Of a DNA stretch of 64,000 nt, positions 4,535 through 51,536 are shown one piece after another. Position 1 is the first letter of the stretch. Every line of letters starts with the position of its first letter. Under the pieces are notes generated by a model, which made no database searches, was not told the origin of the DNA, and worked only from the letters and a program-made list of their open reading frames with translations. The stretch covers positions 124,001 through 188,000 of the forward strand of contig NZ_JALJRB010000003.1 in the NCBI RefSeq assembly GCF_022968795.1. The letters run 5' to 3'. Position numbers and translations under genes: made by a program. This DNA is from Desulfatitalea alkaliphila (GTDB lineage Bacteria; Desulfobacterota; Desulfobacteria; Desulfobacterales; Desulfosarcinaceae).

Positions 4535-6079
4535 ATGGATGTCGCCGTTGTTGTGGACCAGATTGCCAATCTGCAGATTCTGAACCAGTTTCTGCTCTCG
4601 CTGTTTCTGCTCATCCCGATGGTGCTGGTGGCCCGCACCGCCGTCGCCGGGACACGTTATTCCCCCATTCTGATCATTGTGCTGTTCGGGTTGACCATGG
4701 GGTATGTCCTGGTGGCCAGTGGCGTCTCCAGCCCGGGGTTGCCGCAATTTTCGCTCATCGACCTTGTGAGCCGAACCACCATTGTCGCCCTGACGGTATC
4801 CTTTTTCGTGGGTGGTCAGGAACTGCGCAAAATTGTCGGGAACATCAAGCTCGATCCGGACGACATGGTGGTGCCCTCCACCGAGGAGACGGTTTTGGGC
4901 ACCGGCAGAACGCAATTGATTTTCATTATTCGTTCCTTTTTCCTGCTGATCGGCATCGAAGCCCTGTACCGTCTCATTCTGGGGTTGAGCTTCAGCGACC
5001 TGAGCCGCTTCTACCCGGTGATCGCTTACCTTGGCTTGGTGGGTGCGGTGATCATGATCGACTACAAGGCCAAAGTGGCCAACAAGCGGCGCTACATCAA
5101 AATGGGGCTCGCCGAAGTCATCGCCATTCTCGGCATCCTGCTGGCATCCTATGGCATCGCCTTGTGGATCAGGCCGTTTATCGCCCTGCCGCAAATCTTT
5201 TTCGCCATGATCCTTTCCGCCGGCTTGGGCGCCTTGATGTATCGCTGGCGATTCGGGCCGACCATCCGCGCCCTGTTGTTTGCCGGCATTCCCGTTGTAT
5301 TGGCGGCCAACTTCATGATCGGCGGCTCCCGGATCAACGACGCATTCGCCATCACCGGAATGAACGCGGTGCTGGCCTACGGCTTTTTCGGCCAGGTTTT
5401 CTGGATGTTCGGCGGGATCGCGCTGCTCATGCTTTTCGGCAGAACCGACCACGCCCGCAACCTGGCGCCCGGCATGGCCGGAGCACTTTCCCACTCCGGA
5501 CTGACGGGGGCCTGCACGGCCGGCGATCTGGGTGACACCGCGGCCTACAGAGCGCCCATCATGATCAATGTGCCCTTTTTCGGCCACATCTTCGTCTTCT
5601 CGATCCTGGCCATGAGCGCCCAGCAAGGGGCGTTGATCTTGTGGCCGTCCTTGTTCATTGTGCTGGGCGGCATTGTGCTGACCATTGTGTCCCTCAGGTC
5701 CATGAGCAGGGCGGACAACATTGATGCCCGGGAAGTAAAGGGCTTGATGCAGTTTTCCTTCGGATGGCAGCTTTGCGCCGTATTCGGCGGTTTCATCTTG
5801 ATGAGCCTGGCCGGCATGCCACTAGGCTTTACGGCGATGGCGGTCTCCTCCGGCATCTCCCATTTCGGTCTGTTTGCCGCCACCCAAGGTGGCATGTTCG
5901 GCCCCGAAGCCTCGGCCCTGATTCCGTTCATCTTCTCCATGCCCTTCCTGGTGCATCCCCTGGTCTTCTTCATGTTCGGCCGGGCCATGGAAAGGCAGGG
6001 CGTCATGCCCAAAACGCCTGTTTACATACTGGCGGCCATCGGACTGGTCGGCATTCTGTATGCGATGCGCGCGGCCTAA
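4535..6079 (+). CDS. Polytopic inner-membrane protein, possible transporter (unassigned)
   Basis: A 514-aa, very hydrophobic protein with about 12 predicted membrane segments across its whole length and no long soluble domain. ATG 4535 is preferred over an upstream in-frame TTG (4490) because AGAGG sits upstream and a strong promoter precedes it. Its arrangement of Gly-rich re-entrant-like stretches ('GLTGACTAGDLGDTAAYR', 'FGLFAATQGGMFGPEAS') is loosely reminiscent of sodium/glutamate-type symporters, but I do not recognise the family. Divergence from acs makes a carboxylate or acetate permease a reasonable guess only. The TAA stop codon lies inside the left end of a MITE-like repeat (begins 6076). 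Confidence 0.8.
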   Translation: MDVAVVVDQIANLQILNQFLLSLFLLIPMVLVARTAVAGTRYSPILIIVLFGLTMGYVLVASGVSSPGLPQFSLIDLVSRTTIVALTVSFFVGGQELRKIVGNIKLDPDDMVVPSTEETVLGTGRTQLIFIIRSFFLLIGIEALYRLILGLSFSDLSRFYPVIAYLGLVGAVIMIDYKAKVANKRRYIKMGLAEVIAILGILLASYGIALWIRPFIALPQIFFAMILSAGLGALMYRWRFGPTIRALLFAGIPVVLAANFMIGGSRINDAFAITGMNAVLAYGFFGQVFWMFGGIALLMLFGRTDHARNLAPGMAGALSHSGLTGACTAGDLGDTAAYRAPIMINVPFFGHIFVFSILAMSAQQGALILWPSLFIVLGGIVLTIVSLRSMSRADNIDAREVKGLMQFSFGWQLCAVFGGFILMSLAGMPLGFTAMAVSSGISHFGLFAATQGGMFGPEASALIPFIFSMPFLVHPLVFFMFGRAMERQGVMPKTPVYILAAIGLVGILYAMRAA

Positions 6080-6233
6080 GGACTCGCGAAAGCACAAATT
6101 CGCATTTCAGGCGCCCGGATGCGGGTCGGATGGGTTTGATCAGCGGATTCAAAACCGGGGGTATAGCGAGCGATTCCGAGGATTATTAATCCGCTCTTCG
6201 GGGCAAGACGGCCGGAAGCAGGGATGCATAATA
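6076..6233 (+). repeat. MITE-like dispersed repeat, copy 1 (right end missing)
   Basis: About 158 nt aligning along its length (visually ~80-85% identical) with the element at 40038-40195. Shared blocks include ATTCGCATTTCAGG, TTGATCAGCGGATTCAAAACC, ATAGCGAGC, ATTCCGAGGATT and GAAGCAGGGATG. The left end 'CTAAGGACTCGCGAAA' corresponds to the terminal inverted repeat of the complete copy. The right terminal repeat is not found, so this copy is truncated or decayed. Its first bases provide the TAA stop codon of the upstream membrane protein gene. Confidence 0.8.
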
Positions 6234-6333
6234 GAGGCTCTACCCGGCCTGGGAAGCAACCCGCCGGACGACCTTGCCCACCGCAACTTGAACACCATGC
6301 GGTTTTGTTTCTTTATTTTACATTTTCAATTTA

Positions 6334-6362
6334 TTGACAAAAATAGGGCACTCTGAGATATT
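6334..6362 (+). promoter_or_regulatory. Sigma70-type promoter upstream of the GXWXG/DUF4334-type gene
   Basis: TTGACA (6334-6339), a 17-nt spacer, GATATT (6357-6362) in an AT-rich island. It lies 75 nt before the ATG at 6438. Together with the repeat at 6076-6233 it accounts for the otherwise gene-free stretch 6080-6437. Confidence 0.6.
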
Positions 6363-6437
6363 GTTCGAGTACCGGCTGCCGAACGGCCCGGAACTGATCC
6401 GACACCCCCAGGGAAAGAACAAGAAAGGAGTCTGCCC

Positions 6438-7001
6438 ATGCATTTCAAAAGTGTTGCTATTGCGTTGTGGTTGTTCTGCGTTGCGGCTTTAACGGTCATC
6501 GGCGTTATGGCCATTGCGCCTCCCGCGGCCATGGCCGCGGCCCCGGCATCCAGCGAACAGACCGGCGCGCCCGCTGAAGCGGCAACCGAGCTGTTTGCAA
6601 TGATCGACAGTAGGGAGGCGTATACCACGGATCAAATCCTGCCCCTCTATGACGCACTGGAACCTGTAGACATCGATTTCATGATCGGCACTTGGAAAGG
6701 CGGCAAGTTCGATGGCGGCAACAGCCCGGACCCCATCAACTGGTACGGTAAGCGGTTCACCTCGACCGAAGATGTCGATCCCTTGTTGGCGCGGAAGCCG
6801 GACGGCACGGTCTACTCCTGGGACGGATGGGGCATGGCGCGTCTGCGTGAAGTCAAGTTCAGGGGCAAAGTGTCCGCCACCCTGATCTACAATCAGCGGC
6901 CCATCATGGACTATTTCCGCAAATTGGACGACCAAACGGTCATCGGTTTCGGCGAACCGAAAGGTTTTCCTCCCTTTTTCTTCTACCTGGTACGGGAGTA
7001 A
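6438..7001 (+). CDS. Exported GXWXG / DUF4334-type protein
   Basis: 187 aa. ATG 6438 follows AAAGGAG at good spacing. Residues 1-34 form a signal peptide or membrane anchor (basic start, Leu/Ala-rich core, 'AAMAAAP' end). The body carries 'GTWKGGKFDGG', which fits the GXWXG motif, followed by a DUF4334-like C-terminal half ('WYGKRFTS', 'GMARLREVKFRGKVSATLIYN', 'IMDYFRKLDD'). Proteins of this pair of domains are usually cytoplasmic and of unknown biochemical role, possibly ligand-binding beta-barrels, so an export signal is unusual. The gene stands alone between a repeat and a convergent operon. Confidence 0.8.
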   Translation: MHFKSVAIALWLFCVAALTVIGVMAIAPPAAMAAAPASSEQTGAPAEAATELFAMIDSREAYTTDQILPLYDALEPVDIDFMIGTWKGGKFDGGNSPDPINWYGKRFTSTEDVDPLLARKPDGTVYSWDGWGMARLREVKFRGKVSATLIYNQRPIMDYFRKLDDQTVIGFGEPKGFPPFFFYLVRE

Positions 7002-7480: not shown

Positions 7481-8728
7481 TCAATGAATGGCCGCCTTTT
7501 GGCTTTCGCCGCCCCGGATCACCTGGGAAACAGCACTCAAGCTGGAATTGGCCAACATATGGACGGTTTTGTTGTGCTTCTTGGCAAGGTTTTTGACAAT
7601 GGAGCAGGCCGCATGGCTGTTGCAACTCACCGGACAGAGCACCACATCAGCCCGCTTGAGCCTGGATTCCAACTGCCTGACACCGTTTTTCATATAGCCG
7701 TCATGATACTCGAAAACACCGCCGCTGCCCTCGATCATCTCTTTATAAAGGGATGCCATGCGCGTGATGCCGCCGACGATCAGGACGCGCTTGCGGCACA
7801 GGTCGAATGCGGGACAATCGGCATCGCACCGGTGCATGCCGCTCAGCGACGCCATCACCTCGCGGGTCTCGGCCCGGAAGTGCGCGTTGAGCGCCTTCTG
7901 CTGTGACAACGCCTCCTGCAAGGACTGCTTTTCCTGTGTCAATGATGCGACCGCCTCCTTTTGCCGGACAAGGCTTTCTCCCATGGCGGCAAGCTTCTGT
8001 TTCAATTGCCGGTTTTTCGCGGCCAATGCATCGTCGAGCCCGCACGCCTTTGCGACCGGCGGCGCAGCCCTGGGGGGCGGCACATTCCGGGCAGCCGCCA
8101 ACTCCGCCGTTCGTCGCTCCAAGTCCCGTTGCAATGCCGCCTTCTCGGATTGCAGCGCTCTGTTTTGCCGGGCCGCATCCCGCGCCCCGTCGGCCATCGC
8201 CGCCAGCTCCGCCTCTTTCCGTTGCAGGCGCTGCAGCACCAGCGAACGCTGATCCGCGCTCCAGTGCATGCTCATATGAACATCGCCGAACACCGACCGG
8301 CGGACGGTTGCCGACAGCGCCGGGTGGGTGGCAGCGGCCCACACGGAACCAAGGTAATCACCGGATGCGAAATCTTGCCGGAAACGCTCCAAAAAGGCGC
8401 GGTCATCCAGATGGTGCAAATGGCCTGAGGTCTTGCCATACTTGCGTTGCAACAATGCGTCGACGCGCCGGGAAAGCCGGTTTTCGCTCTCGGAACTGGC
8501 GACCAGCGCCTCGTGAATTTCAAAAGGCGTGCTCCTTTTGTCGGACAGTCCGGCTTTTTTCGCCACCTGCTTCTGCTCCGCGGGGCTGAGGCACATGCCG
8601 GCCAGCGGGCATTTGAAGAAATGGTCCACTTGCCAATACCGCAGCGGCTTTTTTGGCAAGTGACCTATCGCCACCCGGCGCACGGTACCGGTGACACTGT
8701 CGGTGGTCACGGTCGTTGGATGGTGCAT
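7481..8728 (-). CDS. DUF2325 protein with long coiled coil
   Basis: 415 aa, cytoplasmic. ATG 8728 follows GGAGGAAAG. The N-terminal ~80 residues carry 'FKCPLAGMC' and a helical region. Residues ~170-310 are a long Ala/Gln/Glu/Arg-rich coiled coil, and the C-terminal ~95 residues form a DUF2325 domain starting 'RVLIVGGITRMASLYKEM' with the conserved 'VVLCPVSCNSHAACSIVK'. DUF2325 proteins are conserved in anaerobes and have no established reaction. The many Cys (including a CxxxxxC pair at 'CDADCPAFDLC') could bind metal or sense redox state. It is the middle gene of an operon with the 97-aa protein and the STAS-like protein. Confidence 0.85.
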   Translation of the reverse strand: MHHPTTVTTDSVTGTVRRVAIGHLPKKPLRYWQVDHFFKCPLAGMCLSPAEQKQVAKKAGLSDKRSTPFEIHEALVASSESENRLSRRVDALLQRKYGKTSGHLHHLDDRAFLERFRQDFASGDYLGSVWAAATHPALSATVRRSVFGDVHMSMHWSADQRSLVLQRLQRKEAELAAMADGARDAARQNRALQSEKAALQRDLERRTAELAAARNVPPPRAAPPVAKACGLDDALAAKNRQLKQKLAAMGESLVRQKEAVASLTQEKQSLQEALSQQKALNAHFRAETREVMASLSGMHRCDADCPAFDLCRKRVLIVGGITRMASLYKEMIEGSGGVFEYHDGYMKNGVRQLESRLKRADVVLCPVSCNSHAACSIVKNLAKKHNKTVHMLANSSLSAVSQVIRGGESQKAAIH

Positions 8729-8766
8729 ATCTGCTTTCCTCCATTTGTGTACGAACGGTATCGCCA

Positions 8767-9060
8767 TCAATCGCCTTCGACCAGCACCTGGGTCAACCGC
8801 TTGCGCAGCACCTCGAGCCGTTTGGACTTGAATGCCTTGCGGCTCTCCTCGATCTCTTCGATGGCTTCCCTCACCGCCTTTTCCAATTTCAATTCCCGCG
8901 GTCTTTTTGGGCACATTTCCAGCAAAGGCAGCAGGTTGCGCTCATCCACGCGCCCTTCCAGGATGGACGTCACCAAGCAGCAATGCAGATCGAGGCCTTG
9001 CTGCAGATCCTTGACACTGACATTGAGCGCATTGATCAAATCCTTTTTTTCGATTCCCAT
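8767..9060 (-). CDS. Small helical protein, first gene of DUF2325 operon
   Basis: 97 aa, no membrane segment. ATG 9060 has GGGAG about 9 nt upstream. Residues ~1-55 read as a compact helical domain with 'LDLHCCLVTSILEGR' and 'LLPLLEMCPKRPRELKLE'; residues 58-95 are strongly charged and probably coiled. I do not recognise a family. It is 38 nt upstream of the DUF2325 gene and shares its promoter, so it probably acts with that protein. Confidence 0.75.
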   Translation of the reverse strand: MGIEKKDLINALNVSVKDLQQGLDLHCCLVTSILEGRVDERNLLPLLEMCPKRPRELKLEKAVREAIEEIEESRKAFKSKRLEVLRKRLTQVLVEGD

Positions 9061-43136: not shown

Positions 43137-43193
43137 CATTGTTTATAGACTGAAACGAAATGCATACAATCCAAACAGATAGGGGGGTATATT

Positions 43194-43976
43194 ATGAGCG
43201 TAGAGCAATACACGCCCAATATAACGCCGGATGAACTTCATTCGGAAATCAGGAAAGAATATGCCAATGTCGCCCTTGAACCGCACAAAGGATACCACTT
43301 TCATACCGGACGGGCGGCGCTAACCCGGCTCGGGTACACCGAAACCCACTATACCGGTTTGCCCGAAGACAACATCGCTTCGTTTTCGGGAACCGGCAAT
43401 CCGTTCATCGTCGGACCGATCATGCCGGGGGACACGGTGGTGGATGCGGGCTCCGGCGCGGGGTTGGACGCGCTGATCGCCTCGCGCATGGTCGGGCGCT
43501 CCGGCCGGGTGCACGGGTTCGATATGACGCCGGAGATGCTTGAGAAGGCGCGTACCGGCGCCGCACGGGCCGGTGCGGGCAACATTGAGTTCAACAAAGG
43601 CTATATCGAATCGCTGCCTTTGCCGGACGGCTTCGCCGATGTGGTGATCAGCAACGGGGTGCTGAACTTGACCCTGGACAAAACCGCAACTTTGCGCGAG
43701 TGGTTCCGGGTTCTTAAACCCGGCGGGCGCCTGTTCGTCGGCGACATCATCGTCGGGCGTCCGATCCCGCAGGAAGCGTTGCAGGACATCTCGTTGTGGA
43801 CCGGGTGAATCGCCGGTGGTCTGCAGGATGCAGATCTGATCCGCTCGGTTCAGGACGCCGGTTTTTCGGATGTCGTGATCGATCGCAAGTATCCCGACCT
43901 GTTCGTGGGCGTGGCCGACCCTTCCGACGCGCTGGCGTTCGGTACGCAGGGGGTCTCTTTTCATGCCCGCAAATAG
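43194..43976 (+). CDS. ArsM-like SAM methyltransferase, predicted selenoprotein (UGA = Sec205)
   Basis: 260 aa if the in-frame TGA at 43806-43808 is read as selenocysteine. Before it is a class I methyltransferase: 'VVDAGSGAGLDALIASRMVG', 'VHGFDMTPEMLEKAR', 'VLKPGGRLFVGD'. After it the same frame continues with the family's C-terminus ('IAGGLQDADLIRSVQDAGF') to TAG 43974-43976. In arsenite methyltransferases the corresponding motif is W.(G/A)C(V/I)AG.L, so the UGA replaces the conserved Cys. A SECIS-like hairpin follows. The other family Cys (in GCGNP) is Thr here ('SGTGNP'), and the protein has no Cys at all. Arsenite as substrate is therefore doubtful. Confidence 0.85.
43811..43843 (+). promoter_or_regulatory. 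Candidate bacterial SECIS element
   Basis: GGTCTGCA (43818-43825) pairs with TGCAGATC (43829-43836; one G-U pair) closing a GGA loop at 43826-43828. The loop starts 17 nt after the UGA and opens with two Gs, as expected for SelB-recognised bacterial SECIS hairpins (about 16-37 nt, G in the first loop positions). CGG/CCG can extend the base below an internal loop. Confidence 0.75.
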
Positions 43977-44849: not shown

Positions 44850-44890
44850 CGGGCGCCTGAAATGCGAAGTTAATTTTGCGCGAGCCCTAT
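44850..44890 (-). repeat. Left-end fragment of the MITE-like family at the jetD 3' end
   Basis: Read on the minus strand, 'AGGGCTCGCGCAAAATTAAC' then 'TTCGCATTTCAGGCGCCCGG' matches the first ~45 nt of copy 1 (6076). The interior is missing. The last six codons of jetD and its TAA stop lie inside this fragment. Confidence 0.7.
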
Positions 44891-46051
44891 GCAGCGTCGA
44901 ATACATTCCCAGGCCCGGGGCCAAGCGATTCTCTCCTGTTCCAGACGCACCTTGAATCCCCACCGGTTCTCTTTCAACCCCCGGTACAGCGCCTGCTCGT
45001 CATCCGTCAGACGGGGCAGGCGGTCGGCGCCGTGCGGCTGTTTCTCTTCGACCCACAATGACTTGTGCGCGAGCAGCGTTTGCTGATCCATGAGCAACGA
45101 CGCGAGCTGCGGCAAGTGCGAACGGGCGCGATGCAGAATAGCAAAGCCGTGGGTGTCGATGTCGCCCCAGTAATAGCAGCGGCTGCGTTCAAGCCATTGG
45201 AATCGGGCGATGCGGTCGATCCCGTACCCCAGGCCCATGATCACCACCGTATCCGGCAAATCTTCAAAGGCAAGACCGGTCTGCAGATTTTCGACGATGA
45301 AAACCCATCGCAGCGGCAACGCCAGCTCGGCCAGCTGTTCAACGGGCGCCGAGATGTCGCCAAGTCCGCCCAGGCGTTGGCGCAGCGCCGGATCGAGCAG
45401 CCGCATGCGGACCATGTCCGGCATTGGGCGCAAACCGCACACCGCGTAGAGATCCTTTCCCTTTGGATCCACGCCGTGGAGCGCCGCCGCAAGTTCCGTC
45501 ACCAGGCCGCGGCGCTGTTCCAGCCACTTGCTGTCCAGCCCGGCAATGGGCAATTGGCGGGGATAGAGAAAGGACCGCGGGTGGGCGCTCAACCCGTCCA
45601 GCAAGGATACCAGGCGCTCAAAATCCGCGTCCGGGTAATCGGCGAGCATGTTGTAATGGCGCGGCAGCAGATCATACAACGCGGGCCAGGTCCGGCAAAG
45701 ACGCTGAAAGCGCTCGCGGGCCGAACGCCAACGGTCGGTTTCGCCCAACCAGGCCGCCACTTCATCGGGGGCGGCCAAAACCAGCCGCGCGGGCAGGCGC
45801 TGGGTGCCCAAATCGCGCCAGCGGCGTTCGCGCCACTCCAGGGTACCGCTGTGAAGATGTTGCCGCCACGCGTCGATCCAGGCCCGCAGATGATCGATCT
45901 GGCAGGCCGCATCGTTTTCGCTGGGATTGCCCAGGGCGATGACCATGGGCCAAGCGTCGCCGCCGCCGAGCCATTGTCCCCGCCGGGCGGCGAAGCGCTT
46001 GCGCAGCTGTTGGCGCACCGATTCAGGAAATCGCAGCGATGGTGTCGTCAC
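44870..46051 (-). CDS. jetD: Wadjet type I nuclease subunit JetD (DUF3322/DUF2220)
   Basis: 393 aa. An N-terminal DUF3322 region (~1-190) precedes a C-terminal DUF2220 Toprim-like domain with 'WVFIVENLQTGLAF' (acidic Glu) and 'YYWGDIDTHGFAILHR' (the DxD-type metal site). JetD is the topoisomerase VI-related nuclease that cleaves small circular DNA once JetABC has extruded it. It is the last gene of jetABCD and overlaps jetC by 29 nt. Its final codons come from a MITE-like fragment, so the C-terminal tail may differ from relatives. Confidence 0.93.
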   Translation of the reverse strand: MTTPSLRFPESVRQQLRKRFAARRGQWLGGGDAWPMVIALGNPSENDAACQIDHLRAWIDAWRQHLHSGTLEWRERRWRDLGTQRLPARLVLAAPDEVAAWLGETDRWRSARERFQRLCRTWPALYDLLPRHYNMLADYPDADFERLVSLLDGLSAHPRSFLYPRQLPIAGLDSKWLEQRRGLVTELAAALHGVDPKGKDLYAVCGLRPMPDMVRMRLLDPALRQRLGGLGDISAPVEQLAELALPLRWVFIVENLQTGLAFEDLPDTVVIMGLGYGIDRIARFQWLERSRCYYWGDIDTHGFAILHRARSHLPQLASLLMDQQTLLAHKSLWVEEKQPHGADRLPRLTDDEQALYRGLKENRWGFKVRLEQERIAWPRAWECIRRCIGLAQN

Positions 46052-49000
46052 GCACTTGCTCCGGTAGATTCAGACGCTGTCGTTGGTCGTCATATTCGAT
46101 CAGCAGCACCCCGGAGCGCTGCCGCTCGTTGATGTCCACAAAGCAGGCGCCGCCGATGAACGGCTCCAGGGTCATGACCGATTTCAGCGGCGTGGCGACA
46201 ATCATCTGGAAGCCGAAGCGGGTGAAGATGTTCATGGCCAGGGCCGTGAATTCGTTATCGGCCTTGTCGAAGGCCTCGTCCAGAACAACCGGCGCGCAGG
46301 CGGGCAAGCTTTGTTCCCTGCCGCCCAGTTGATAGCGCAAGGCCGCCGCCAGACAGGTGGTGGCCAGCTTCTGCCGCTGACCGCCGGACTTGCCTGCCCC
46401 GCTGCGGTACACCTCGACCTCGTTGCCCTGCCCATCCAGTTCCCGCGCGATGAACTCCACATGCAACCGCACATCCAGCACCTCGTCGCGCCAGCGCCGC
46501 TGCTGGGGATCCTGGTCCGCCAAACGATCCACCAGGCGCCGCAGGGCCGCGAAGCGGCGCTCGGCCGTTTCGCGGTCTTCGGTCCAGGCGTGGCGCAAGG
46601 CATCGTGAATCTCGCGCTTGAACTCCTGAACCGTCGGCAGATGGCGGTCGGCGACATCGATCCGCAGGTAAGTGCCCCGGTTGAACCGGGCGTGACGCAG
46701 TCCTTCATTGACCAGCTCCATGCGCTCACGGATCTCATTGCGCGCCTGCCGCAAATGGGTGTTCAAGGCGGCGAGATTCTGGTGGCTTTGATCTTTGAGC
46801 AGATCGAAAAACCGTCTTTCATGGCGCGGCAGGCCATCGATCTCCAAGCGCCGCAACTTGGCCAGAAAATCCTCCGCGGCGGCCAATTTGGCATCCAGTC
46901 CCTCCGATTCGGCCGCCCATTGGGAGATGAAGTCGGCGAAACAGCTCTCGATCCCCCGTTCCAGTTGATGAAGCTCGCTGCTCAATGCTTTGAGCTCCTC
47001 GTTGATCCGGCGTTCCACCTGGTGGGTCAAAGCGTCCAGGTTGTCCAGGGCGGCCGCCCGCCCGAGGGCCTCGAAGCGATCCGCGAGCGCTTCCTGTTGG
47101 CCGGCGGCCAGGGTTTGGGCCGCGGCGGTTCGGTGCATCTCGTCCAGCGCCGTTTGCCTTGCGCGGATCTCCTTTTCCACCTCCCGGATGTCGACCTTGA
47201 TCTCCTGCACGCGGTTCTGTGCCTGATCGCGTTGCCGTCGGGCCGCCGTCATACGGACGGCGATCTCCTGCAAGGCCTGGTTGCCGCGGCGAATCTCATC
47301 CAACTGTGTTTCCAGGGCGGCGATGCGATCGATCAGCGGCGTGGTGTCCAACTCTTCCCACTGCAGGTTGACCAAGGTCTGGCAGTGCAGTGCCCGTTCG
47401 GCGCGCCGCTCTTCCTCCGCCTGCAATGCGTCCAGGTCCCGGCGCCCGGCGGCGATCCGCTCGGCCAAGGCTTGCGCCTGCTGTTTGTAGAGCGCCAGCT
47501 TTGCGTGATTGTCGAAGCCGAGCACCCAGTGGCGCCGGTCGTCGATGGAGCGCCGATCATCCTTCTCATGACGTGTTTTGCCATGGCGCACCAGCCCTTC
47601 AGGTGTCAAGGCCCGCTCGTGCTTCTTGAAACCGGCCACCGAATCGACGCAAATGTAATTGAATCGGTGATTGAGTTCGCCCCTGAGCCACTTCTGATAC
47701 GACCCCTCCTTCAACTGCAGCTTACCGGCCAGGGACTGGATGGAGACGGTCAGAGCAGCCGCCGGATTGACGCCCGCCACGCGGTAGTAAACCAGCCGCT
47801 GCCCCAGGTGCATCCCGTTGACCACGCCGGAAACCGCGCCGTAGTGGCGTTCGTCGACCAGCATGGAGAGAGCGAACCCATGCAGCACACGCTCGATGGC
47901 CCCGCGCCACCGGGCTTCCCGCGGCAACACTTCGATCAGCTCACCGACAAACGGCAGCGCCGCCGCATCAAGGCCCGCCTGCTTGGCGATCCGGCGGCGT
48001 AAATCGAGCATCCGCGCCGGAATGTTGGAGGGTTGGCGCTCGAGGGAGGCGACCTCCCCGGCCGTCTCCTTGAACTCCTTTTCAAGGGCATCAACGGCCA
48101 CGGTCAAATGGTCCCGCCGGTCCCGGGCATCCCGGGCTTGCTGCCCACGGGCCTCGAGTTCCTGCCGCGCCCGGCCCCGCAATTCGGCAAAGGCCATGGG
48201 TCCATCGGCCGGTTCCCATGCCAGGCGGTCGCAAGCCATGCGCGCCTGGGCCTGTTTGGCCGATCGCCGCGACCGATCCGCTTCGCGCTCTTTTTTCTCG
48301 GCTTCCAACCGTTCGATGCGATCCCCGCCCAGCCGGCCGTGTTGCTCCTCCAACTCCTGCAACGTCCGTTGATGTTGCGCCGCCGACGCTTCGCGCCGTC
48401 GCGCCTCGTCGTTCAAACCTTCGACCCGCACCCCGAGATCCTCGATGCGCGCTTCGAGCAGTTGCACGCGCAACCGGTCCCGGTAGACATCGATGCCTGA
48501 ACGTAAAAGATCCAAGTCCTCGTGCTGCGCTCGCACCCGCAGCAGCCGTTGGTGCTTATCGCGGGCCGGCGCCAGCGTCTGCACCTGCCGGCGGGCCGTC
48601 ACCACGGCCTGATGGGCCTCGTTCAGTTCGGCGAATTCGGCAACCAGGGTCCGGGCCACATCGAAGGTCTCGGGGGTGTCGAGCATGAAATCGCGCAAAA
48701 AGGCGTTCAAATCCCCCAGGCTCTTGGCCGATTGGGTCTTGTGCAGCAAGCGCAGGGCCAGCTCGCTCTCGATGTGCAACAGGCGGCGGAACCGCTCGCA
48801 ATAGGGGTTGAAGGTGGCGAAATAGTTCCCGTCGGCCAGCTCATGCTTCAAACGGCGCAGATCGAGATTGAATGCCTCGAGTTCCGCCAGATCGAAAGGG
48901 CGCTCGAAAATAATGAAATGCCGCCGCACATCGGCGGCGCCGGTGCTCCGGCCGCGCAGCCAGAACAGGCCCACCAGCACCACCGTGCGCCCCTCCATCC

Positions 49001-49379
49001 CCCGAAAGGTCAGGGCCAGGGCGGACCAGGTGGTGCCGGTGCGCAGATAGCGGGCGGCGATTTCCCCGGTGGCCTCGTCTTGCTGTTCGGACCAGGCGCC
49101 GCGGATGTAGGTGGCCCAGTTGCGATCACGGCCCTTGTGGGTCGCATCCCGCGCGGCGGCATTGAAATCGATCCAGCGCGGCGGAATGAGCAACGCCGAG
49201 ACGGCATCCAGCAGCGTCGTCTTGCCCGAACCCGAACGGCCCACGAAGAGAAAGCCCCGTTCCGCGATCGGTATGTCATGCAACCCGTCGAAGGTCCCCC
49301 AGTTGAACACCTGTAACCTTGCAATGCGAAACTGCGCATGGCTCGGAAAGAGCTCCCTCTGCTCGGCGGCGGCGTTCAT
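46023..49379 (-). CDS. jetC: Wadjet SMC-like ATPase JetC
   Basis: 1118 aa, MukB/SMC-like. The head has Walker A 'VGRSGSGKTTLLDAVS' (~residues 31-46), ABC signature 'KSGGQRQKLATT' and Walker B 'PVVLDEAFDKAD' near the C-terminus. Between them are long coiled coils (~270-430 and ~620-890) around a hinge-like globular region. It is the motor of the DNA-loop-extruding JetABC condensin. It overlaps jetB by 4 nt and jetD by 29 nt. All ATPase motifs are intact, so the system looks functional. Confidence 0.95.
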   Translation of the reverse strand: MNAAAEQRELFPSHAQFRIARLQVFNWGTFDGLHDIPIAERGFLFVGRSGSGKTTLLDAVSALLIPPRWIDFNAAARDATHKGRDRNWATYIRGAWSEQQDEATGEIAARYLRTGTTWSALALTFRGMEGRTVVLVGLFWLRGRSTGAADVRRHFIIFERPFDLAELEAFNLDLRRLKHELADGNYFATFNPYCERFRRLLHIESELALRLLHKTQSAKSLGDLNAFLRDFMLDTPETFDVARTLVAEFAELNEAHQAVVTARRQVQTLAPARDKHQRLLRVRAQHEDLDLLRSGIDVYRDRLRVQLLEARIEDLGVRVEGLNDEARRREASAAQHQRTLQELEEQHGRLGGDRIERLEAEKKEREADRSRRSAKQAQARMACDRLAWEPADGPMAFAELRGRARQELEARGQQARDARDRRDHLTVAVDALEKEFKETAGEVASLERQPSNIPARMLDLRRRIAKQAGLDAAALPFVGELIEVLPREARWRGAIERVLHGFALSMLVDERHYGAVSGVVNGMHLGQRLVYYRVAGVNPAAALTVSIQSLAGKLQLKEGSYQKWLRGELNHRFNYICVDSVAGFKKHERALTPEGLVRHGKTRHEKDDRRSIDDRRHWVLGFDNHAKLALYKQQAQALAERIAAGRRDLDALQAEEERRAERALHCQTLVNLQWEELDTTPLIDRIAALETQLDEIRRGNQALQEIAVRMTAARRQRDQAQNRVQEIKVDIREVEKEIRARQTALDEMHRTAAAQTLAAGQQEALADRFEALGRAAALDNLDALTHQVERRINEELKALSSELHQLERGIESCFADFISQWAAESEGLDAKLAAAEDFLAKLRRLEIDGLPRHERRFFDLLKDQSHQNLAALNTHLRQARNEIRERMELVNEGLRHARFNRGTYLRIDVADRHLPTVQEFKREIHDALRHAWTEDRETAERRFAALRRLVDRLADQDPQQRRWRDEVLDVRLHVEFIARELDGQGNEVEVYRSGAGKSGGQRQKLATTCLAAALRYQLGGREQSLPACAPVVLDEAFDKADNEFTALAMNIFTRFGFQMIVATPLKSVMTLEPFIGGACFVDINERQRSGVLLIEYDDQRQRLNLPEQVRDDTIAAIS

Positions 49380-50086
49380 TCTTCCGTGTCCTCCTCCGCC
49401 TGCGGCTCGGCGGCGATGTGCACGTCCAAGTCACCGGCCAGTGCTTGATATTGTGCCGTGAGGGCCACAATCTGCTCGGCCGAGAAAAGCAGTTTCAAGG
49501 TGGGGGAAATCTCGAAGCGCTCCACGTCCCCCCTGACCTTCTGCAGCATGCTGTTCTTTTTCATTTTCTCCACGGATGCGCGGATCTTCTTGGCAAATCC
49601 CGCATGATCGGTGCTCACCGCCCGCTCAAAGGGGGCCGCATGTTCGAGGATCTCGGCGGCGTCCACCACCGCCCGCTCGCCCCGCACATCGGCCTGGGTC
49701 AGACGCTGGCGCAAAAAGAGCAGCACCACGGAATCAATGAAGGTCAGCGGCGTGCGCCGCAGCAAAATCGGCGTTTCCAGGTCGCCCGCATCGGCCTGGC
49801 GCGTGAAGGCCACCTGTTGGTCCGTATCGATCACCAGTTCCAGAAAAAGGTCGTGGAGGCGGCTGCGGAGGATCGTTTCGTCCCGCACCAATACAGGCCA
49901 CAGGCGGGTGTGGCGCCGCCCGTCCAGATAGGGACCCGCCAGCAACTGCACCAAAACGCGCCGCGTCTCCAAGGGCAATTGTCCCAAGTCGCCCTGGTAG
50001 AGCCCGCCTTCGGTTTGCTCTTGCACCACGCCCTCATTCGCGGGCGCGCCGTCGGCCGTGCGGGCCGATGGATCAGGCGAGTTCAT
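49376..50086 (-). CDS. jetB: Wadjet KITE-like subunit JetB (DUF4194)
   Basis: 236 aa. A disordered N-terminus (~1-30) precedes the DUF4194 winged-helix region ('LLRRTPLTFIDSVVLLFLRQ', 'FERAVSTDHAGFAKKIRASV', 'FEISPTLKLLFSAEQI'), followed by an acidic tail. JetB is the MukE-like KITE partner joining the JetA kleisin to the JetC heads. It overlaps jetA by 14 nt and jetC by 4 nt. Confidence 0.92.
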   Translation of the reverse strand: MNSPDPSARTADGAPANEGVVQEQTEGGLYQGDLGQLPLETRRVLVQLLAGPYLDGRRHTRLWPVLVRDETILRSRLHDLFLELVIDTDQQVAFTRQADAGDLETPILLRRTPLTFIDSVVLLFLRQRLTQADVRGERAVVDAAEILEHAAPFERAVSTDHAGFAKKIRASVEKMKKNSMLQKVRGDVERFEISPTLKLLFSAEQIVALTAQYQALAGDLDVHIAAEPQAEEDTEE

Positions 50087-51536
50087 GGACCTGCTCCTTG
50101 AGAAAATAGATCAACGGAATTCGAGCACTGCGCTGCTGCATGTCCTCGCCCGTCCAGGCAACGGTTTCGCTGCGTCGGCCCATCACCCGGCCATGGCGAC
50201 TGCCCAAGGCCAGGTACCCCACCACGCTGCCGAGCCCTTGCGCGGCGGGAAAGGCACGCAACACCTCGCCGATGCACACCTGGGACCGCTGCGCCAGGCA
50301 GGCGCGGATATTGTCGGCCAGCCCCCGGAAATCGATTTCCGACTGCATCACCCAGGCCGCCACGGCATCCAGGCCGATCTGCGCCGCGTCGCCGGCGGCC
50401 ATGCCGCTTTCCACCGTGTTTTCGGAAGGATCCATCAGATTCCATTGCGAAAGCGAACGAATCCGGCTGCTGGTCAACTGCAAATGGAAGTTCATTTTTT
50501 CGCCGGCCTTGACCTCATTCTTGAGGGCCAGGGCGTGCTGCTGCGCCTCCGATATCAGTCGGTTGATCCGTCGTTGTTCCATATATTCGCGGCTCTGCAC
50601 AAACTGTTTCAGGCTGCGGGCGAATTGCTGCAACACCTCGTGCACCGTACCGCCCTGGGCCAACAGGTTCTGGATCAGGCGCAGCAGGAAACGCCGTTCA
50701 GCGACCTCCAGCCGGTTGCTGAAATCCCGACCGAACAATTCCTCGATGGCCGCTTCCAAGGCGGCATTCTGTTCCGGGTCGGTCAACAAACGCCAAAAGG
50801 CATGGAAGGTGCGCCCGGACTCGCTCTCGGCGATCACGTCGATTCCGGCGAACAGCTTTTCCAGCACATCGCCGCGGCTGCCGCTGTCATCCATGATCCG
50901 CTCGCGCAAATCGCGGTTCAGATGCTCGAAATCGTCCCGCACGCTATGGAAATCGGCGATCAATTCCCCGGACAGGGCGATGATGTCCCGCACCCGCTCC
51001 AGCGCCTCGTCCTCCTCCAAGACCTTGAATCGCCCCTTGCGCAAGGCCGCAATGGATGCGTCGATCCGCTCCCGCTCCGCCAGCAGATGGGTCATGCGGC
51101 TTTCCGGATCGGCATCGGTCTCCTCGACGAGGCGCCCCAATTGATGGATGACGGTGGCCAGCCGACTGCCCGTCACCGCCGAGCGCGGCTCCACCAAACC
51201 GCCGATCAAGTGAATGGCTTTGGCCGCGGCAGCGGACAGCTCGTACTCCTCCTCGGTGGCGCCGGCCGGGAATCGGCGGATCAACCACCCCTTGGCCAGC
51301 CAGTCGGCCACATAGGCCCGGGCCGTCTGGGGCAGGGCCTCGCCGCGCGCCCGCAACTGCTCCAAATCCCGCTCCAGCCGCTCGTACAGAATGGAGGCCG
51401 CAAGCTTTCGATTGCCCTCCATCAGGTTGTTCTGCAGCAGGGCGATGGCAACCGGACCGTTGTCGGCGGCCAAAAGGCGCCACAAGGGCTCATCCCGCAA
51501 ACGACGATAGGTGACGAAGGCCTGGTTGAGATTCAT
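50073..51536 (-). CDS. jetA: Wadjet kleisin subunit JetA (DUF3375)
   Basis: 487 aa, first gene of the operon. The DUF3375 fold begins 'FVTYRRLRDEPLWRLLAAD', continues with a long helical middle (~130-330), and ends in a winged-helix C-terminus ('ARIPLIYFLKEQVHELA'). It corresponds to the MukF-like kleisin of the JetABC condensin. ATG 51536 lacks a clear Shine-Dalgarno. No promoter motif was certain in the 236 nt upstream. Confidence 0.93.
   Translation of the reverse strand: MNLNQAFVTYRRLRDEPLWRLLAADNGPVAIALLQNNLMEGNRKLAASILYERLERDLEQLRARGEALPQTARAYVADWLAKGWLIRRFPAGATEEEYELSAAAAKAIHLIGGLVEPRSAVTGSRLATVIHQLGRLVEETDADPESRMTHLLAERERIDASIAALRKGRFKVLEEDEALERVRDIIALSGELIADFHSVRDDFEHLNRDLRERIMDDSGSRGDVLEKLFAGIDVIAESESGRTFHAFWRLLTDPEQNAALEAAIEELFGRDFSNRLEVAERRFLLRLIQNLLAQGGTVHEVLQQFARSLKQFVQSREYMEQRRINRLISEAQQHALALKNEVKAGEKMNFHLQLTSSRIRSLSQWNLMDPSENTVESGMAAGDAAQIGLDAVAAWVMQSEIDFRGLADNIRACLAQRSQVCIGEVLRAFPAAQGLGSVVGYLALGSRHGRVMGRRSETVAWTGEDMQQRSARIPLIYFLKEQVHELA

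Follow-up and report, generated by a model that had tools for sequence, protein, structure and literature searches.

Does the in-frame TGA at codon 205 of a methyltransferase-like gene in the window (the whole 64,000-nucleotide stretch of Desulfatitalea alkaliphila DNA that was analysed) end a protein or encode selenocysteine, and, in the latter case, what might an enzyme built in this way act upon? The preliminary description of this locus had the TGA fall on a Cys that is conserved in arsenite methyltransferases (ArsM) and the frame continue to a downstream TAG, and translation bears out the second point: the open reading frame encodes 260 residues including U205, contains a single TGA and has no Cys codon in frame (Table 1). 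Methyltransferase domains are found in the 260-residue product by a Pfam scan, and its top NCBIfam match is the arsenite methyltransferase family NF008823 (224.2 bits, below the cut-off of 263), followed by NF041537, NF047649 and NF041536 (221.5, 211.8 and 197.4 bits, for cut-offs of 510, 460 and 575, respectively). Of 39 PDB sequence matches, the top five are arsenic methyltransferases, and the 13 best PDB structural matches to an AlphaFold2 model computed with 36 sequences (mean pLDDT 94.5) are all ArsM or AS3MT chains. Profiles and model support the assignment of the predicted product as a SAM methyltransferase with an ArsM fold.

Table 1. Features of the window; positions are counted from its first nucleotide.
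Feature	Position	Strand	Basis
Probable Sec-containing ArsM-like SAM methyltransferase, 260 residues with U205 (ATG 43194, stop TAG 43974-43976)	43194..43976	+	translation, profile scans, model
GGGGGG run, 6 nt 5' of the ATG, possible ribosome-binding site	43182..43187	+	inspection only
H35-F36-H37, invariant in 34/34 rows	43296..43304	+	alignment, gappy there
T67, equivalent of CmArsM C72	43392..43394	+	alignments
SAM motif I region, VVDAGSGAG, residues 82-90	43437..43463	+	sequence and alignment
G155, equivalent of CmArsM C174 (SNC to SNG)	43656..43658	+	alignments
TGA at codon 205, very probably selenocysteine, aligned with C224 of CmArsM	43806..43808	+	alignments
bSECIS-type hairpin, 8-bp stem (arms 43818-43825 and 43829-43836), loop GGA (43826-43828)	43818..43836	+	folding and covariation
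JetA	50073-51536	-	PADLOC
JetB	49376-50086	-	PADLOC
JetC	46023-49379	-	PADLOC
JetD	44870-46051	-	PADLOC

The comparative analysis was carried out on 34 aligned rows, namely the window gene and 33 loci, whose named members carry the labels Thermodesulfobacteriota, Myxococcota, Dormiibacterota and Chloroflexota. The loci were collected by scanning named genomes (five loci, including the Cys-type L012, later kept apart) and by searching relatives, the order and two phyla, and since rows were drawn by E-value and motif, their uniformity at motif positions is partly a product of selection. Kept outside the rows, besides L012, were a duplicate (L069, of L011), the GCG/SNC Cys types L088-L097, other Cys-type loci, groups B and C (L032, L034, L042, L043, L046-L048), further TGA matches that were given no locus, and the remnant found in the same-genus genome G001, which has only the 3' part of the gene (L117, about 1863-2078), with the TGA and the hairpin region. 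Codon 205 is TGA in 30 of the 34 rows and TGC or TGT in the remaining four (L071, L072, L078 and L082), and hence the UGA aligns with Cys in relatives. One member, L068, presents a second in-frame TGA at a Trp of its relatives, indicative of decay or of a sequence error in a draft that is 72% complete.

The host assembly (5.07 Mb, 99.68% complete) contains the whole selenocysteine machinery: a tRNA-Sec with a TCA anticodon (73.5 bits), SelA (605.2 bits), SelB (379.6 bits) and SelD (367.2 bits; L118, G000:C16:32576-33502), the last with one in-frame TGA of its own, so that SelD may itself be a selenoprotein. Absence of sel genes, like homologues ending at the same UGA, had been put forward beforehand as speaking against selenocysteine; selA, selB, tRNA-Sec and selD are all present, and the homologues continue past the UGA. 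Among the candidates scored in each genome, a tRNA-Sec exceeded the cut-off in 25 of the 30 genomes that have a TGA form, none being found in the other five, as compared with three of the four that have a Cys form (one of them marginal); these figures do not separate the two forms, and the idea that tRNA-Sec tracks TGA rather than Cys forms was rejected.

The preliminary description had also reported an 8-bp hairpin with a GGA loop starting 10 nt after the UGA, and this was recovered as described, with the stem beginning at the tenth nucleotide and the loop lying 17 nt from the UGA. According to the portion of PMC13188914 that sets out the rule for bacterial SECIS (bSECIS) elements, these have a loop of 3-9 nt with a G in its first two positions, a stem of 4-16 bp, a distance of 16-37 nt from the UGA and a minimum free energy (MFE) of at most -7.5. 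The window hairpin, with its GGA loop, 8 bp, 17 nt and -9.1 kcal/mol, conforms to it throughout. Synonymous recodings of the window gene were as stable in 2% of 200 cases (MFE) and as well paired in 3.5% of 400 (pairs out of eight), and 12% of 400 reached an 8-bp stem under the bSECIS rule, for which reason the window hairpin alone is modest evidence. Across the rows, the 19-nt piece folds with an MFE of -6.7 to -13.4 kcal/mol where codon 205 is TGA (30 genes) and of 0.0 to -4.9 where it encodes Cys (four genes). When the MFE is compared with that of synonymous recodings, 26 of the TGA genes and none of the Cys genes score 5% or less; under the two weaker tests, 20/30 (pairs out of eight) and 11/30 (bSECIS-rule stem) of the TGA genes do so. 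Perfect pairing extends over 5 bp in L022, L063, L068, L086 and L087, and L076, at -6.7 for the folded 19-nt piece, misses the published mark of -7.5.

The hairpin with the GGA loop covaries across the 30 TGA genes. Its eight stem pairs are formed in 87.9% of cells, versus 34-51% for slid partners, and 23 cells are changed on both sides; none of 500 shuffles reaches the two-sided count, the percentage paired or the covariation score of the stem. Two of the five covariation measures fail against the same shuffles (pairs with two-sided change, reached by 314/500, and pair types, reached by 37/500), and the innermost pair is unpaired in 13 of 29 genes. In the Sec form L085 the hairpin is unbroken; its Cys-form sister L082 retains at that place a weak hairpin, interrupted by a single mismatch, that may be the relic of a Sec ancestor.

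It is against this background that a true stop at UGA205, leaving a 204-residue protein and a decaying 3' end, has to be considered. UGA is a normal stop in the host's code and a 5'-truncated remnant does exist in G001, but dN/dS 3' of the UGA is 0.02-0.30 in all 12 pairs compared (pairs that share sequences, one of them with a dS 5' of the UGA that could not be computed), denoting purifying selection; TGA or Cys occupies the site in every one of the 34 rows; the hairpin covaries in the TGA forms and not in the four Cys forms; and the Sec machinery of the host is complete. Selection, the Cys/Sec pairs and the hairpin led us to reject a true stop or a pseudogene, which we regard as extremely improbable. 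A genome-wide reading of UGA as some other residue need hardly be invoked, since the Sec machinery would account for the codon. UGA205 very probably encodes selenocysteine, and the locus would then be a real selenoprotein gene, in which a strongly supported scheme has the UGA decoded by SelB and tRNA-Sec, guided by the downstream hairpin, to yield the full-length 260-residue selenoprotein.

If U205 is accepted, its position within the active site becomes the main source of information on function. Alignments with 5evj and 5eg5 place T67 at C72, G155 at C174 and U205 at C224 of CmArsM, the place of C72 being fixed by the fact that 5eg5 is, by its title, a C72A mutant. These three Cys bind arsenite in CmArsM, as stated in excerpts of PMC5552862, and the four Cys of ArsM are covered as background in an excerpt of PMC8552651. 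The conserved Cys at which the TGA had been said to sit is thus C224, within a UIAG motif; the second ArsM Cys had rightly been given as Thr, and the loss of a further one, the Cys of SNC, replaced by Gly155, had been missed. In all 34 rows (chosen in part by motif) Cys is absent from the equivalents of C72 and C174, and position 205, always U or C, is set in a W-x-x-U/C-I-A-G motif whose specified residues are all invariant. Compared with a canonical ArsM, the product retains the SAM fold, with ArsM as its nearest relative, and differs in all three Cys and in its NF008823 score. The loss of the canonical thiols, with the C224 equivalent alone left, as Sec or, in four relatives, as Cys, is strongly supported by the alignments.

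The emphasis placed earlier on a protein devoid of Cys, with a single selenol and no thiol, holds in part. It is correct for the window gene and, as regards the canonical positions, for all 34 rows, yet complete absence of Cys is found in only 9 of the 30 TGA genes, all within the 12-member branch of the window gene; Cys elsewhere is scattered, and none besides position 205 is invariant in the 34 rows. Absence of Cys is in itself weak evidence, because five of the ten window ORFs of 200-320 aa (called greedily, some possibly antisense) also lack it, and it was set aside as the main point. H35 and H37 are invariant in 34/34 rows. The N-terminal Cys pair seems to have been replaced by this invariant His-Phe-His, which lies at roughly the place of that pair in canonical ArsM; the replacement is likely but unsure because, of nine rows that are Cys-type or belong to group B, four have a Cys pair within or next to the His-Phe-His stretch and five have gaps or other residues.

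Sec-containing methyltransferases had been predicted before, as the preliminary description allowed, and passages of PMC13188914 (a 2026 review) and PMC2398784 list a Sec-containing arsenite methyltransferase with a UxxG motif, and ArsM is treated as well in a part of PMC9312934. Given that the motif here is UIAG, the published Sec would occupy the same position as U205. Selenocysteine in ArsM is therefore already in print and not new. The Sec-ArsM so described (PRK11873/NF008823) shares superfamily and UxxG Sec with the window protein, but its examples L042, L043 and L048 keep GCGNP and SNC where the latter has Thr67 and Gly155. NF041537 (ArsM_AhpD_UU), NF047649 (MTase_UXPK_star) and NF041536 (ArsM_DUF2284_UU) are fusion selenoproteins, for which the relevant text of PMC13188914 cites Haft and Tolstoy 2025; the window protein stands alone, its scores fall far below their cut-offs, its frame ends after the methyltransferase domain without a second Sec-containing part, HFHTG takes the place of FKYPTG, and the Cys of CGVGNP is missing. 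L032, which we would assign to NF041537, has SNG in common with the window protein and a Val at the C72 place, but its read-through frame leads into a second stretch with CEPUARYC. As for the best structural and sequence matches, CmArsM, CrArsM and human AS3MT (4fr0, 6cx6, 5evj and 8xt7), the three As-binding Cys of CmArsM (72/174/224) contrast with the retention here of the C224 equivalent only, as Sec. No ArsM variant with His-x-His and a single Sec was found among the matches listed by a full-text literature search, as judged from titles and the beginnings of abstracts, and the variant lacking the C72 and C174 thiols, with His-Phe-His and a lone C224 equivalent, looks new.

With regard to function, we favor a Sec-dependent methyltransferase whose soft substrate, a metalloid or a chalcogen, is held next to SAM by the selenolate and perhaps by the His pair as well, and we would give this reading a probability of about 0.6. 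The selenolate would bind a soft, thiol-bound substrate, be it an arsenical or a sulfide-, persulfide- or selenide-type species, H35 and H37 might help to place or ligate it, and the methyl group of SAM would be transferred to the substrate so held. A substrate or mechanism unlike that of ArsM, as originally suggested, is possible. Arsenicals and chalcogens represent two substrate cases of the selenolate reading, and the gene neighborhood, examined by mechanical ORF calls in the 25 members other than L065, L074, L077, L079, L081, L083, L085, L086 and L087, bears on both. No shared operon with the window gene was found among these 25 stretches, in which neighbors vary. At the window itself, the six scanned neighbors comprise three dehydrogenase/reductase-like genes, an EamA transporter, a PilZ gene and a transglutaminase-like gene, and none of the six is an ars gene or gives an arsenic, sulfur or selenium hint.

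A methyltransferase for arsenite or methylarsenite, in which Sec and two His stand in for the Cys site, has in its favor the ArsM fold, the solved ArsM as nearest relatives and the ArsR-rhodanese regulators that adjoin the gene in 4/25 stretches. Arsenite stays a serious candidate because TtArsM, from Thermus thermophilus, methylates As(III) in vitro with one conserved Cys and two His, and its C77S, H40A and H179A mutants lose the arsenite resistance that it gives to E. coli (as reported in extracts of PMC8649762). The Cys of TtArsM, however, sits in the N-terminal part, which makes the comparison with the invariant H35, H37 and position 205 an analogy, drawn from the published description of TtArsM; moreover, canonical positions 72 and 174 are lost, the host genome carries a separate Cys-type ArsM elsewhere (L015) and the scanned window neighbors lack ars genes, and we hold an arsenical substrate to be possible but rather doubtful. 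The rhodanese and MBL context of other members points to sulfur or selenium species, that is, to a Sec that would carry or hold an S, Se or Te atom for methylation from SAM in detoxification. MBL-fold and MFS genes lie near the methyltransferase gene in 5/25 stretches from several tree branches (clustering being the sole basis for two MBL and three MFS assignments), with ArsR-rhodanese in four of these five and the MBL gene fused to rhodanese in L113 and L116, and such gene sets resemble BigR/Blh sulfide operons (compare PMC5823870), albeit with matches far below cut-off. Against this stand the absence of MBL, MFS and rhodanese neighbors at the window and in 20/25 stretches and, in two genomes of one genus, the presence instead of a gene for a MerC-family membrane protein 47-49 nt upstream (L099 764-1162 and L102 2310-2912). 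The MerC family is named for mercury resistance. The substrate chemistry is hypothetical, and we deem the chalcogen case unlikely, if worth keeping in mind. Still less probable, in our estimation, is a selenol that acts as redox switch or methyl acceptor, without being a substrate ligand, in an enzyme that methylates something unrelated. The intact SAM fold, the varying neighbors and the lack of any other invariant Cys in the 34 rows would be compatible with it, but the residue of CmArsM that corresponds to U205 is the As-binding Cys224, and U205 lies within the invariant residues of the W-x-x-U/C-I-A-G motif.

A broader, more tentative proposal, on which we would put somewhat less than even odds, is that of a separate, cross-phylum ArsM-like group with His-x-His and a single selenol in place of the three-thiol arsenic site, directed at a soft substrate that is not arsenite (such as a sulfane sulfur, Se or Te species) and subject to repeated Sec/Cys conversion. 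In the tree, a branch of length 1.55 with support of 100/100 separates Cys-type and group B rows from all others, and the Cys forms occupy three places on the tree, L082 pairing with the Sec form L085. Group C (L032, L034, L046 and L047), however, joins beside L078 inside the 34 rows (support 92/80, with long branches), and the 34 rows may therefore not be one clade. The gene of an Anaerolineales MAG (L011) groups with the branch of the window gene, by transfer or through a misbinned contig; a tRNA-Sec was not found among the candidates scored in that genome.

Were the favored reading true, one selenol would suffice for an ArsM-type active site, possibly with histidines replacing thiols, and the needs of methyl transfer would be separable from the redox cycle in which several Cys take part during arsenite methylation. 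Some genes annotated as 'arsM' might then have a role other than the methylation of arsenic, and the natural Sec/Cys pairs would offer material for asking what selenium buys.

Several minor observations concern the surroundings of these genes. In two genomes from the search of the G483 phylum, the gene belonging to the 34 rows has another ArsM-like methyltransferase gene less than 0.6 kb away (L108, about 5886-6740, and L110, about 8147-8857). A possible thiol methyltransferase beside L100 was set aside, since it gave only weak isoprenylcysteine methyltransferase matches; the portion of PMC12904073 consulted names no ArsM-type enzyme. A sensor-kinase-like ORF 5.9 kb upstream of the window gene, which clusters with ORFs at four other loci, was taken as chance. 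Finally, a complete Wadjet-type gene set with strong PADLOC matches occupies positions 44870-51536 of the window, on the reverse strand.
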